NCBI RefSeq assembly: GCF_943181405.1
Contig: NZ_CALPBY010000004.1
Span: 1-64,000 of the forward strand
From: Cellulosimicrobium sp. Marseille-Q4280
GTDB lineage: Bacteria > Actinomycetota > Actinomycetes > Actinomycetales > Cellulomonadaceae
Length of the DNA stretch: 64,000 bases
Reading direction: 5' to 3'
Shown here: piece after piece, positions 36,303 through 41,152 of the stretch
How positions within the stretch are numbered: position 1 is the first letter of the stretch
Layout: each line of letters starts with the position of its first letter
Notes under the pieces: generated by a model
The model's database searches: none
What the model was told of the DNA's origin: nothing
Seen by the model: the letters and a program-made list of their open reading frames with translations, nothing else
Position numbers and translations under genes: made by a program

Positions 36303-36929
36303 ATGTCAGTTCCTTCGTCGCGCCTTCGGCGCGCATCAGCACTCGCGGTCGTCCCGGTCGCCGTCCTCGCGGCCGGTGCACTGGTGTGGCAGAGCTCGAC
36401 CGCAGCGTTCACCGCGACCACACGCAACGCGGGCAACTCGTGGAGCACCGGACAGGTGGTGCTGACCGACGACGACGCCGGTCGCGCGGGTTTCACCGAA
36501 GCGAACCTCGTCCCGGGCGAGACCGGGCAGCGGTGCATCGTGGTGACGTCCGGGTCGAACGTGGCCGGCGAGGTCCGCGCCTACATGGAGAACCTGTCGA
36601 CGTCGGCGCAGGGCCTGGAGAACTACATCGAGTTCCAGGTCGAGCGGGGCACCGGCGGGTCGTTCGAGAGCTGCGACGGATTCGAGCCGGTCCCCGGCGC
36701 GCTGCCGCCCGCCTCGCTCGTCGACCTGGTGGCGAACAACTACGACTACGCGACCGGCGGGGCCGCCTGGGAGACGACGGGGACACCCGGCGAGTCGATG
36801 ACCTACCGCGGCACGTGGACCTTCGACACCACGGGACTGACCCAGCAGCAGGTCGACGCGCTGCAGGGCGCGCAGGTCTCGGTCGACCTCGTGTGGGAGC
36901 TGCAGAGCGACGAGGCGCCCACGACCTGA
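36303..36929 (+). CDS. TasA/camelysin-like secreted protein with SipW-type signal
   Basis: A 208-residue secreted protein. Residues about 8-33 form a signal segment (ALAVVPVAVLAAGALVWQ), followed by STAAFTATTRNAGNSWSTGQV, the T-A-x-F-T ... N-x-G-N ... TG pattern seen directly after the cleavage site in TasA and camelysin proteins, which need a SipW-type signal peptidase. The mature part has beta-sandwich strands with CIVVTSGSN and QVSVDLVWELQ and a possible Cys pair. TasA proteins form fibres in Bacillus biofilms; here assembly is inferred only. It is immediately followed by the SipW-like gene at 36951 (21 bases), which should process it. Confidence 0.72.
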   Translation: MSVPSSRLRRASALAVVPVAVLAAGALVWQSSTAAFTATTRNAGNSWSTGQVVLTDDDAGRAGFTEANLVPGETGQRCIVVTSGSNVAGEVRAYMENLSTSAQGLENYIEFQVERGTGGSFESCDGFEPVPGALPPASLVDLVANNYDYATGGAAWETTGTPGESMTYRGTWTFDTTGLTQQQVDALQGAQVSVDLVWELQSDEAPTT

Positions 36930-36950: not shown

Positions 36951-38309
36951 GTGCACCGCAGTCTCCGCTCCGCCGTCCCGGCGGCCTTCTCCCGGGACGG
37001 CTGGGCGGCGCTGTGCCTGGGCGTCCTGGCCGAGGTGTTCCTCGTCCTGACGCTCGCGCTCACGACGGTCTCACTCGTGCCTCTCGCCTTCGGCTGGCAT
37101 GGGTCCGTCGTCCAGACCGGGTCGATGCGACCGCACATCGACCCGGGAGATCTCGTCCTCCTGACCGATCTCCCGACCGACTCGCCCGTCCCGGTGGGTG
37201 GCGTGGTGCAGTTCCGCACGCCCGCAGCCGCCGAGCCGAGCGGGGAGAGCGGGTCCCGGCTCCACCGCATCGTCGCGTCCGGGGAGGAGGAGGGCCGGTG
37301 GGTCACCGCGGGTGACGCGAACCCGACGGTCGACAGCAACCAGATCACGCGGAACCAGATCACCGGGCAGGCGCGACTGCTCGTGCCCTGGGTCGGCCTG
37401 CCCAGCCTGTGGATCGCGCACGGCAGGCTCGGGCTCGTGGCGCTGTGGGGCATCGTGACGCTCGCGGCGTTCCTCGTCGTCGCCTGGTGGTGGCCCGAGC
37501 GCGTCCCACGACCCGGCGCCCGCCCGAACACGACGTCGTCCCCGTCGACGCCGGGTGGGCCCAGCCGCCGCTCGGCGTTGGCCGCGCTCGTGGTGCTGGG
37601 GCTCGGTGCCGTGGTGACCGCACGGGGGGAGCCGGTGACGGCCGCGTTCACGGCGCGCACCGTCAGCACGGGCAACACGTTCCGCGTGGCGACCGCCGCT
37701 CCGCTCCGGCTCGGGCGCGCCGCCACCTACACCGTCCTCGCCGCCACGCGCGTCGCGAACCAGGCGTTCCTCGGCATCGGCAGCTCCATCACCGGCGACG
37801 TGGCGGTCTCGCCCGGCTCCACGGTCTCGGGCTTCTGGCCCTGGGACGTCTCCGGAACCATCGAGCGGAACACGGTGGCAGCCCGCAACGCGCGCGACGA
37901 CGCGCTCGCCCTCGCCGCCGCGATCGACGCCCGCGCCACGACGGTCAACCTGCCGGCGACCGTGACCGGGACGTTCTACCCCGGCGTCGGGCGACGCTCC
38001 GGTGCCGTCCAGATCACGCAGACGCTCACGCTCGACGCGCGAGGCGACACGAGCGCCGTCTTCGTCCTCTCCGCGACGGCGATCACGCTCGCCGCCAGCG
38101 CACGCGTCGTCCTGCGGAACGGCGCGTCCGCGGATCGCGTCTTCTTCCGCGGCACCTCGGGCATCACCATCTCCGACACCGCGACCGCTCGGGGCACGTT
38201 CCTCGCCGACGGCGACATATCGCTCGGACGCGACGCGGCCCTCACGGGCAGGGCCCAGTCGCTGCACGGCGCGGTGGTCCTGACGCGCGCGACGGTGGCG
38301 CACCCGTGA
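36951..38309 (+). CDS. SipW-type signal peptidase I fused to an ice-binding-like (DUF3494) domain
   Basis: A 452-residue protein. Residues 1-180 are a signal peptidase of the SipW/Sec11 kind: a first membrane helix (about 20-45), the catalytic Ser58 in QTGSMRPHIDPGDLVL, His105 in GSRLHRIV (histidine replacing the lysine of standard bacterial peptidases), the GDANPTVD box (121-128), and a second helix (about 160-180). A cytoplasmic Pro/Ser-rich linker (181-205) leads to a third helix, RRSALAALVVLGLGAVVTA (206-224), then TAAFTARTVSTGN (230-242), the same kind of motif as the secreted partner. Residues 252-450 resemble DUF3494 ice-binding/adhesin proteins (VLAATRVANQAFLGIGSSITGDVAVSPGSTVSGFW). 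GTG start; weak ribosome site. Confidence 0.78.
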   Translation: MHRSLRSAVPAAFSRDGWAALCLGVLAEVFLVLTLALTTVSLVPLAFGWHGSVVQTGSMRPHIDPGDLVLLTDLPTDSPVPVGGVVQFRTPAAAEPSGESGSRLHRIVASGEEEGRWVTAGDANPTVDSNQITRNQITGQARLLVPWVGLPSLWIAHGRLGLVALWGIVTLAAFLVVAWWWPERVPRPGARPNTTSSPSTPGGPSRRSALAALVVLGLGAVVTARGEPVTAAFTARTVSTGNTFRVATAAPLRLGRAATYTVLAATRVANQAFLGIGSSITGDVAVSPGSTVSGFWPWDVSGTIERNTVAARNARDDALALAAAIDARATTVNLPATVTGTFYPGVGRRSGAVQITQTLTLDARGDTSAVFVLSATAITLAASARVVLRNGASADRVFFRGTSGITISDTATARGTFLADGDISLGRDAALTGRAQSLHGAVVLTRATVAHP

Positions 38310-38330: not shown

Positions 38331-39047
38331 TCAGGTCCGACCGAGCCCTTCCTCGCGCGCGACGACGATCGCCGCCGAGCGGTCGCGCGCCCCGAGCTTG
38401 GTGAGGACGTTCGTCACGTGGTTGCGGACGGTCTTGGGGCTCAGCACGAGCCGCCGCGAGATCGCGGTGTTGTCGAGCCCGGCCGCGACGAGGTCGAGCA
38501 CCTCGCGCTCGCGGTCGGTGAGCTGCGGGAACGGCACGCGCACGGACGACCGTCCGCCGACGACGTACGCCATCGCGCGGTCGGCGACCGCCGGGCCGAG
38601 GATCATCGCGCCGTCGGCGACGGCACGGACCGCGCGCTCGATCTCGACAGGGCTCGCGGACTTCACGAGGTACCCGCGTGCGCCCGCGCGGACGGCCGCG
38701 ACGACGACGTCCGCGTCCTCGTGCATCGTCACGACGAGCACCCGGACCTCCGGGCGAGCGCGCACGAGCTCGCGCGTCACCTCGACGCCGGACCCGTCGC
38801 CGAGGTCGACGTCCATGAGCACGACGTCGGCCGTCACCTCAGGCCGACCGGATGCGCCGGGCACACCTGCCGCCTGACCGTCGTACCGCGCGTCGTCGGG
38901 CGGCGCGGCGAGCCCCAGCACGGTGCGCGCCTCGGCGGCGCCGGCCGCGTGCCCGACCACACGCACGCCGTCGAGCGAGTCGAGCAGCGCGACGAGCCCG
39001 AGCCGGAACACGGGGTGGTCGTCGACCACGACGACGTCGATGCTCAC
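38331..39047 (-). CDS. NarL/LuxR-type response regulator
   Basis: A 238-residue regulator. Receiver: VVVVDDHPVFRLGLVALLDSLDG, phosphoacceptor in DVVLMDVDLGDGSGVEV, lysine in GYLVKSASPVE. A 20-residue insertion (DDARYDGQAAGVPGASGRPEV) precedes the phosphoacceptor strand and is not typical. The LuxR helix-turn-helix reads LTDREREVLDLVAAGLDNTAISRRLVLSPKTVRNHV. The GTG overlaps the kinase stop by four bases, so it is translated with the kinase at 39044. Targets unknown. Confidence 0.9.
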   Translation of the reverse strand: MSIDVVVVDDHPVFRLGLVALLDSLDGVRVVGHAAGAAEARTVLGLAAPPDDARYDGQAAGVPGASGRPEVTADVVLMDVDLGDGSGVEVTRELVRARPEVRVLVVTMHEDADVVVAAVRAGARGYLVKSASPVEIERAVRAVADGAMILGPAVADRAMAYVVGGRSSVRVPFPQLTDREREVLDLVAAGLDNTAISRRLVLSPKTVRNHVTNVLTKLGARDRSAAIVVAREEGLGRT

Positions 39048-41152
39048 GGCACGACCTCCCCGGCGACGATCCCCGCAGCGGCGGTGCTGCCGGCGACGGT
39101 GCGACCGGCGGGGGCGTGTCCCACGACGGCGCGGCCCGGCTCCAGCGGCAGGACGGCGCGGACGCGCGTCCCCGGCCGGGCGCCGTCGGGCGTCGCGGTG
39201 GTCACGGCCACGCTCCCGCCGAGCTCCTCCGCACGCTCCCGCACGGACCGTGAACCCACGCCGGGCCGGGCGCCGGGCGCGATCCCGACGCCCTGGTCCT
39301 CGACCGTGACGACGAGGTCGTCGTCGCGCACCACGACCTCGAGGCGGCACTCGTCGACGCCCGCGTACCGCGCCGCGTTGACGACGGACTCGCTCGCGAT
39401 CGCGTACGCGGCGGCCGCGACGCGGGAGTCGAGACCGGCGCACGGGTCGCACCGCACGTCGACGACGAACCCGGCCACGGCCTGGCGTCCGGCGAGCTCG
39501 CCGAGCGCGGCCTCGAGCCCGAGGTCGTCGAGCGACGGCGGCAGGAGGCTGCGCGAGAGGGCGCGCACGTCCTCGACGCGCTGCCCGGCCTCGGCGCCGA
39601 GCGCGTCGAGGATCGCTGCCGCGGCCGCCGGGTCGGTCTCCAGCACGTTGCGCGCGCCCTGCAGGCCGAGGCGCAGCCCGGTGAGCCAGGGCCCGACGCC
39701 GTCGTGCAGCTCGCGCCGGATGACGCGCCGCTCGGCGAGCCGGGCGCGCGTCGTCGCGTCGCGCGCGGCCTCGAGCTCGCGCGCGCCCTGCGCGAGCGCG
39801 AGCCCGGCACCGAGAACGGGCAGGAGCTGGTCGAGCGCGTCGTCCGTCCGCGCGTCGAGCCGCTCGCCGGCGCGGGGCACGACGTGCACCCGGCCGATCA
39901 CCCGGCCACCGTGCTCGATCGACCGGACGGCAGCGCGCCGGCCGGCGTCGGCAGGGTCGCCGGGACCGGAACCGGAACCGGATCCGGATCCGGAGCCGGA
40001 GCGGGCGACGGTCGTGACGGGCCACTCGATCGTCACCGACTCGAGCCGCAGCGCCTCGCGCACGCCGCTCGCGAGGCCCGCGACCAGCTCGTCGGCGGTC
40101 GACGCTGCCGTCAGGCGGCGTCCCACGCTCAGCGCCGCGCGGCCCGGGTCGCGGCCGTCGCCGTACACGAGCACGCGCACCCGACGTCGCAGCCACGCGT
40201 GCAGGGGCTGGACCACGAGCGCGACGCCCACCGCGGCGACGACCTGCGCCGCCGGGCCGTCGACCACGGTCGCGGCCACGACGACCACCGCGCCGTAGAC
40301 GACCGCGAGCCCGACGGCGAGCATCGCGGCGATCGTCGCGCGCGACAGCACGAGGTCGATGCCCCAGAGCCGGTTCCGCAGCACGCACACGAGGATCGCG
40401 GCGGGGAACATCGCCTGGCACGCGAGGTGCGTGAGGGGCAGCGCGAGGATCACGTCCGGGTTCGCCCACCTGCCCAGCAACGGGAGGAACGAGAGCGCCA
40501 TGAGGGCCGTCCCGAGCGCGAGGAGCCCGAGCCCGCGCCGGTCCTCCACCGGTCCGCGGCGCCACCGCCACGCCGTCGCGCCCGCGGTGACGAGCCCGAC
40601 GACCACGACGACGGCGATCGCGGGTCGCGGGTCGTCGGTGGGGGCGAGGAGGAAGTACCCGATCGACGCGGCGCCGGCGGCCACGCCGCACCAGCTGCCG
40701 ATCCCGAGGCGCCCCGAGCGCACGAACCACGGCACGAGGACGAACAGGCCGATCGTCCCCGGGACCCAGGCCCAGCCGTAGGCGTCGGCGAGCGGGGTGA
40801 GCGGGGGGAGCGCCGGATGGGTCGACGCGTAGCTGCGCCAGCCGCCGCCCAGCGCGGCGACGCCCCCGCCGACGGCGGCGACGGCGGTGAGCCACCCGAC
40901 GACGTGCGGCCGGCGCGCGAGGATCACCGCGGCGACCGTGCCGTAGACGATCGCGACCGTCGCGTCGACGACGACGAACAGCAGGTCGCCGAGGAGCAGC
41001 GGGACTCCCGACGTGAGCTGCAGCAGGAGCGCGGACGTGCCGAGGAGCCAGGCGAGAGCTCCCACGGCTCCGCCGAGGAACCAGCGCGTGCGGGGCATCC
41101 CGGCGCGGCCGGGCCCAGGACCGGCCACGAGCCCACGGTAGGGCCGCGGCAT
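39044..41152 (-). CDS. NarL-type sensor histidine kinase with multi-pass membrane sensor
   Basis: Up to 702 residues from ATG 41152. About eleven hydrophobic helices fill residues 20-330, without a recognised sensor domain. They are followed by a segment with a GS repeat (SGSGSGSGSGSGPG) near residue 410, HisKA_3 ERRVIRRELHDGVGPWLTGLRLGL with phosphoacceptor His, and an HATPase with VVNAARYAG and VGIAPGARPGVGSRSVRERAEELGGSVAV. Alternative starts downstream of 41152 (near 41098) are possible. It is coupled to the response regulator at 38331. The signal sensed is unknown. Confidence 0.85.
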   Translation of the reverse strand: MPRPYRGLVAGPGPGRAGMPRTRWFLGGAVGALAWLLGTSALLLQLTSGVPLLLGDLLFVVVDATVAIVYGTVAAVILARRPHVVGWLTAVAAVGGGVAALGGGWRSYASTHPALPPLTPLADAYGWAWVPGTIGLFVLVPWFVRSGRLGIGSWCGVAAGAASIGYFLLAPTDDPRPAIAVVVVVGLVTAGATAWRWRRGPVEDRRGLGLLALGTALMALSFLPLLGRWANPDVILALPLTHLACQAMFPAAILVCVLRNRLWGIDLVLSRATIAAMLAVGLAVVYGAVVVVAATVVDGPAAQVVAAVGVALVVQPLHAWLRRRVRVLVYGDGRDPGRAALSVGRRLTAASTADELVAGLASGVREALRLESVTIEWPVTTVARSGSGSGSGSGSGPGDPADAGRRAAVRSIEHGGRVIGRVHVVPRAGERLDARTDDALDQLLPVLGAGLALAQGARELEAARDATTRARLAERRVIRRELHDGVGPWLTGLRLGLQGARNVLETDPAAAAAILDALGAEAGQRVEDVRALSRSLLPPSLDDLGLEAALGELAGRQAVAGFVVDVRCDPCAGLDSRVAAAAYAIASESVVNAARYAGVDECRLEVVVRDDDLVVTVEDQGVGIAPGARPGVGSRSVRERAEELGGSVAVTTATPDGARPGTRVRAVLPLEPGRAVVGHAPAGRTVAGSTAAAGIVAGEVVP
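39965..40000. repeat. Six-base tandem repeat in the histidine kinase gene
   Basis: Units of CCGGAA, CCGGAT and CCGGAG recur about six times and encode the Gly-Ser stretch of the kinase linker. The unit length keeps the frame, so copy number could change without breaking the gene. Confidence 0.7.

Follow-up and report, generated by a model that had tools for sequence, protein, structure and literature searches.

Introduction

As a rule, a signal peptidase and the proteins that it cleaves are distinct chains. In Bacillus, SipW and its substrates are separate proteins, with the operon order tapA-sipW-tasA, and DUF3494 ice-binding proteins are usually secreted on their own. The Bacillus subtilis SipW/TasA system resembles the locus described here in that an ER-type Ser/His peptidase serves an exported protein, and its substrate TasA carries Phe at P2′, as one study reports (PMC10269814); unlike B. 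subtilis SipW, the present enzyme is fused to one substrate-like domain. A second system pairs SipW of Clostridium perfringens with BsaA proteins, which make up an extracellular polymeric substance; in contrast to what is found here, the opening of the abstract of that report, whose text names SipW 77 times, mentions no fusion (PMC7395162).

The two halves of the protein have relatives of known structure. SEC11A and SEC11C (PDB 7p2p, 7p2q) share its catalytic domain, with Ser and His aligned, but their chains of 198 and 211 residues are, unlike the fusion, too short to hold a cargo domain; DUF3494 ice-binding proteins (PF11999; PDB 5uyt, 6eio) belong to the same sequence family as its cargo. 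Among the matches listed from the open-access literature (titles and abstract starts, with few subscription journals and no preprints), none described the fusion of a signal peptidase with exported cargo, and no open-access paper was found on DUF3494 with a signal peptidase, on LamG with a signal peptidase in Actinobacteria, or on an ice-binding protein with a signal peptidase in Arthrobacter. The parts are of known kinds; their arrangement is new, a variant of the SipW/TasA kind.

A signal peptidase and a DUF3494 domain in one frame

The window, a 64,000-nucleotide stretch of a contig from Cellulosimicrobium sp. Marseille-Q4280, contains a continuous frame of 452 codons, starting with GTG, in which a signal peptidase is followed by a DUF3494 domain. 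Its parts are as follows.

36951..38309, + strand: fusion of signal peptidase, predicted internal signal peptide and DUF3494 domain, 452 amino acids (ORF, Pfam, alignment)
37008..37094, + strand: first membrane helix, residues ~20-48 (placed by eye; alignment of relatives)
37122..37124, + strand: predicted catalytic Ser58 in VVQTGSM (invariant in three alignments; found by pattern in 40/40 fusions)
37263..37265, + strand: predicted catalytic His105 in LHRI, ER-type, replacing Lys (pattern in 40/40 fusions; aligns to SEC11A His)
37314..37334, + strand: Asp122, in the GDAN box that starts at residue 121, to Asp128 (pattern in 40/40 fusions; SEC11A alignment)
37416..37493, + strand: second membrane helix, residues ~156-181 (placed by eye; alignment of relatives)
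37494..37574, + strand: Pro/Arg-rich linker ending in RR (206-207) and Ser208 (predicted cytoplasmic from positive charge)
37575..37622, + strand: short hydrophobic, signal-peptide-like segment, residues 209-224, ~16 residues (placed by eye; hydropathy 2.51 over the best 15 residues)
37635..37661, + strand: predicted internal SipW-type cleavage site, V229-T-A231/A-F233-T-A-R-T237 (conserved columns of the 40-fusion alignment)
37737..38297, + strand: DUF3494 / Ice_binding domain, residues 263-449 (PF11999; PDB ice-binding proteins)

The initial annotation had read this frame as a signal peptidase joined to a DUF3494-like domain and had placed Ser58, His105 and GDAN exactly where they are found; the DUF3494 assignment, which it had made to depend on a profile match past residue 250, is borne out by PF11999 at residues 263-449 (E 4.3e-25, 89.1 bits against a cut-off of 28.7) and by a profile search against solved ice-binding proteins in the PDB (best E 5e-47). 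Its further idea, that one polypeptide carries both a protease and its cargo, stands as well.

Used as a profile, the peptidase half matches the SEC11A/SEC11C structures (E ~1e-12), its Ser and His lining up with theirs, and this dyad and alignment therefore assign it to the ER (Ser/His) type; the dyad together with the GDxN box marks a predicted ER/SipW-type signal peptidase I (S26B). It also matches the Bacilli SipW model (E 2e-5) and TIGR02228 (E 1.6e-11), the latter at 44.3-45.8 bits and hence under the curated cut-off of 51.85, so that it is called SipW-like rather than a member of the equivalog. All 11 members of the peptidase alignment A4 match TIGR02228 at E<1, the best at 4.3e-18.

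Relatives of the fusion

The single protein as query matched 72 stretches, none of them a relative, whereas an alignment query retrieved relatives. The same architecture, for which a search had been proposed at the outset, occurs in seven genomes of the same family at 46-58% identity. A family-wide PF11999 search returned 55 rows, in which the fusions take the bottom eight places (81-107 bits versus 157-229): compared with other PF11999 proteins, the fused copies in this family form a low-scoring, divergent fringe. Within the genus, a DUF3494 match is present in one of 17 genomes, that of the window itself.

In total, 40 distinct fusions were collected, the window included, 14 of them with DUF3494; as they were picked from search results for an in-frame extension beyond helix 3, they do not show how often such peptidases are fused. 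Loci retrieved twice, such as L039 and L045, were counted once. Fourteen of the 40 (L154-L166 and L169) were retrieved by the site-bearing profile A4, and the other 26 were not. Left out were L167 (an unknown base in the frame), L168 and L189 (peptidase and partner as separate genes), L178 and L183-L188 (a lower-scoring set), L190-L194 (different C-termini), the plasmid copies L195-L196 and eight fusions among L197-L205; L050, which ends inside its DUF3494 domain at a frame break, was kept. Catalytic Ser and His were found in every one of the 40, as listed above.

Farther afield, a profile of the peptidase plus the following segment matched 102 of 394 genomes class-wide at 1e-10 and 58 of 396 phylum-wide at 1e-15, counts that include unfused peptidases and are not counts of fusions. 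Twelve loci from the phylum search were inspected, and eight are fusions.

The third hydrophobic segment and a conserved internal site

The sequence around the third hydrophobic stretch, RRS-ALAALVVLGLGAVVTA-RGEPVTA/AFTART, has n-, h- and c-regions as in a signal peptide, with a cut predicted between the two alanines. In an alignment of the 40 fusions that was given no site, the P1 column (A231) is Ala in 38, P3 (V229) is small (Ala, Ser, Thr or Val) in all 40, and P6′ (T237) is Thr in 38; P2′ (F233) is Phe in 37 and aromatic in 39, the three exceptions to Phe, one Tyr, one Trp and one Met, belonging to L156, L163 (Met) and L169. Past the second helix, no columns are better conserved than those of residues 231, 233 and 237. 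Pairwise identity over 11 aligned rows averages 0.24 in the linker, 0.20 in the helix (209-228), 0.68 at 231-237 and 0.29 beyond.

An early automatic placing of the site scored Phe higher and was biased, for which reason the 40-fusion counts come from the alignment described above; with that placing, which favoured Phe, P2′ is Phe in 26 of the 26 fusions not retrieved with A4. By eye, P2′ is Phe in seven of the eight phylum-search fusions and Leu in L201, which is no independent test because these sequences were retrieved with A4, though they are part of no model. In the lower-scoring set, P2′ is aromatic by eye in four of six loci (L183-L188) and not in L187 and L188. The exact cut position is ambiguous in L052 and L053.

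The predicted site is retained before unrelated cargo domains, and the third helix resembles a SipW-type signal peptide built into the chain. The initial annotation had called it a third membrane helix: the hydrophobic stretch is indeed there, but it is better described as an internal signal peptide, a role as permanent anchor being disfavoured by the conservation of P1, P2′ and P6′.

An exported partner encoded upstream

Directly upstream lies a gene for a second exported protein.

36303..36929, + strand: partner gene, 208-residue exported protein with a SipW-type signal sequence, its stop 21 bases before the fusion start
36402..36410, + strand: predicted partner cleavage site, P1 Ala34, P1′ Ala35, P2′ Phe36 (signature)

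The partner carries its own ...SSTA/AFTATTRNAGNSW, with the cut predicted at the slash, and all 18 aligned partners share A34-A35-F36 and T40. When the internal segments of 20 fusions, and no other sequences, were made into a profile, it picked up the upstream partner in 18 of those 20 loci and gave no match below E 0.08 elsewhere among the loci examined; other profiles repeated this partner result. According to a partner profile, the gene stands upstream on the same strand in 38 of the 40 fusion loci, at most 276 bases from the approximate peptidase start (including L059, where it is split over two frames): the SipW-type peptidase gene adjoins an exported putative substrate with an aromatic P2′. 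The two exceptions are L041, with no partner within the 7.5 kb examined, and L151, with none upstream and a cargo that itself matches the partner profile (E 3e-8). In the window genome, this partner is the single match at E up to 1.

The partner also occurs beside peptidases without cargo (for example L135, L138, L139 and L171), which suggests that partner and peptidase form the older unit, to which cargo was added later. Naming it TasA or camelysin was rejected for too little support, since PF12389 (TasA/CalY, camelysin) is matched by one of 18 partners (E 0.044), and the four PDB matches with E up to 1 include no TasA. The remaining matches of the partner in Pfam and NCBIfam are scattered and weak and were taken as chance. 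A second partner-like gene is found downstream of the fusion in two loci (L156:3066-3761 and L197:3067-3768).

Exchange of cargo

Four classes of cargo are distinguished among the 40 fusions: DUF3494 in 14 (PF11999 matched in 13, with the truncated L050 lacking a Pfam match), LamG in 14 (PF13385 in all 14), Ig repeats in eight (Big_7 in all eight, barely over the cut-off in L126) and others in four, namely L151 (partner-like), L152 (CBM5/12-like, E 0.007, below the cut-off) and L060 and L169, which have no domain assignment. The eight phylum-search fusions carry LamG (two), an ALK/LTK-type glycine-rich domain, RCC1, WD40 with fn3 and, in three cases, cargo without assignment. The lower-scoring L183-L188 have the same order of parts; some appear by eye to carry FN3-like cargo, and Pfam, run on four of the six, assigned none. 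RCC1 (L203:340-2274, -) and WD40/PQQ-like propellers (L205:1366-3618, +) are folds unexpected as signal peptidase cargo.

In a peptidase-domain tree of 49 rows, nine of them without such cargo, cargo types are grouped much better than shuffled labels would be (11 changes versus 28.4), yet well-supported branches force at least two cargo changes each for DUF3494 and Ig and at least three for LamG; the Ig fusion L157, for instance, sits inside a supported clade of otherwise LamG fusions. The same peptidase lineage carries unrelated, exchangeable cargo. This amends the first reading of the locus in two respects: several cargoes occur, of which DUF3494 is one, and the window gene belongs to a widespread class found beside an upstream exported partner.

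A proposed self-processing polyprotein

The preferred explanation, to which a probability of about 60% is given, is that the polyprotein inserts its peptidase, exports its cargo behind the internal signal peptide and then releases that cargo by its own cleavage. In the topology that we infer, the first two helices would insert the ER-type (Ser/His) peptidase with its active site outside, and the third hydrophobic stretch would act as a second, internal signal peptide that takes the DUF3494 domain across the membrane; the linker is likely cytoplasmic because it is positively charged, and the order of the parts would bring the predicted site to the same side of the membrane as the active site. 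The peptidase would then cut after Ala231 (A/AF...T), in cis or in a neighbouring copy, to free a 221-residue cargo, and would itself be retained in the membrane with the spent signal peptide as its third helix. The upstream partner shares this site and would be expected to be processed by the same enzyme. As with the Ig, LamG, CBM-like and propeller domains found in relatives, the DUF3494 cargo would most likely be a surface or matrix component exported with the partner; because most cargo types are of surface or matrix kinds, and given the partner, a matrix or adhesion role like that of the SipW/TasA system is suggested. That one enzyme per cargo is costly counts against self-processing.

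Cleavage might instead occur in trans, by another signal peptidase of the genome, leaving the fused enzyme with a different job such as processing the partner only. This could happen because the window genome encodes two further SipW-like peptidases and one LepB-like enzyme (assigned by eye), but it appears unlikely, as the catalytic residues are kept in all 40 fused enzymes by pattern and the fused enzyme is itself the peptidase encoded beside a substrate-like partner with the same site. Regarding the LepB-like enzyme, one study reports that an aromatic P2′ slows Escherichia coli LepB and is found in none of 143 verified LepB substrates, and that Trp at P2 is the main LepB block in TasA, the P2′ effect being left there to further work (PMC10269814); since the window has Thr at P2 where this main block is Trp, LepB might cleave its site.

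A tether is improbable on present evidence. Here the third helix would stay uncut and hold the DUF3494 domain outside on the peptidase, either to anchor an adhesin or to guide the peptidase to a site or substrate, as might be argued from the fusion itself and from the very hydrophobic helix of five Ig-type relatives (3.2-3.4 over 15 residues). In a tether a cleavage site would be superfluous, yet P1, P2′ and P6′ are exactly what is best conserved past the second helix and what unrelated cargoes have in common, and the hydrophobic stretch of the window is short.

In actinobacterial Rieske proteins, Sec inserts two helices and Tat then exports the last segment. An equivalent route for the cargo, followed by cutting by the fused peptidase, would be a compatible variant of self-processing; RR does stand before the helix in the window, as it does in many DUF3494 relatives (for example SRRTFLAA in L041), but the Pfam TAT_signal model matches one of three tested segments at E 0.087 and the window segment not at all, and six of the eight Ig-type fusions have no RR within 15 residues before the helix, so that this variant seems a doubtful one.

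Finally, a frame error or misassembly that fused two genes is ruled out for practical purposes, in agreement with the initial annotation's view that the join is no frameshift and codon use is even: even though L189 encodes a peptidase and, in a gene of its own immediately after it, a SipW-type substrate, the fusion is shared by 13 other DUF3494 loci and many with other cargo, isolate genomes included, GC3 is even across the parts (0.93 in the peptidase, 0.92 in the linker and 0.95 in DUF3494; 0.91-0.95 from partner to DUF3494), and RefSeq predicts related peptidase-Ig fusions as single CDSs on two Arthrobacter plasmids.

If self-processing holds, the lineage would offer a natural device in which one gene provides both secretion and release and a portable cleavage site precedes exchangeable surface domains, and it would hint at counterparts of the SipW/TasA matrix system in actinobacteria. 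Its extension to the whole of the Actinomycetota can be put forward tentatively, at somewhat less than even odds: a phylum-wide, modular mode of self-delivery in which a peptidase lineage forms one chain with its substrate, cuts it in cis and has repeatedly exchanged cargo (DUF3494, LamG, Ig, RCC1, WD40, glycine-rich, CBM-like and others) while keeping enzyme, site and upstream partner.

Plasmid copies and other C-termini

The two plasmid copies, from an Arthrobacter alpinus permafrost plasmid (L195) and an Arthrobacter sp. TMP15 meltwater-pond plasmid (L196), each comprise a partner and a peptidase-Ig fusion, downstream of which a response regulator or an Hpt protein is encoded; L196 additionally has an ice-binding family gene. 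RefSeq names both after the cargo alone ('Ig-like domain-containing protein'), so that the enzyme half is easily overlooked.

Further C-terminal extensions were seen among the loci set aside. L190 and L193 encode peptidase-like proteins with long C-terminal parts, apparent extra membrane helices and, by eye, no A-x-F site. The peptidase fusion L194:2042-3466 (+) ends, again by eye, like a sortase-type anchor (LARTG, hydrophobic stretch, basic tail). In L192:1809-3251 (-), one frame runs from a signal-peptidase-like domain into an EAL domain (PF00563, 5-236 of 236, E 1e-25), a cyclic-di-GMP phosphodiesterase-type domain that would be cytoplasmic.

In the window itself, the fusion is directly followed by a convergent frame (38331-40895, -) with a response regulator receiver and a LuxR-type domain (PF00072, PF00196).
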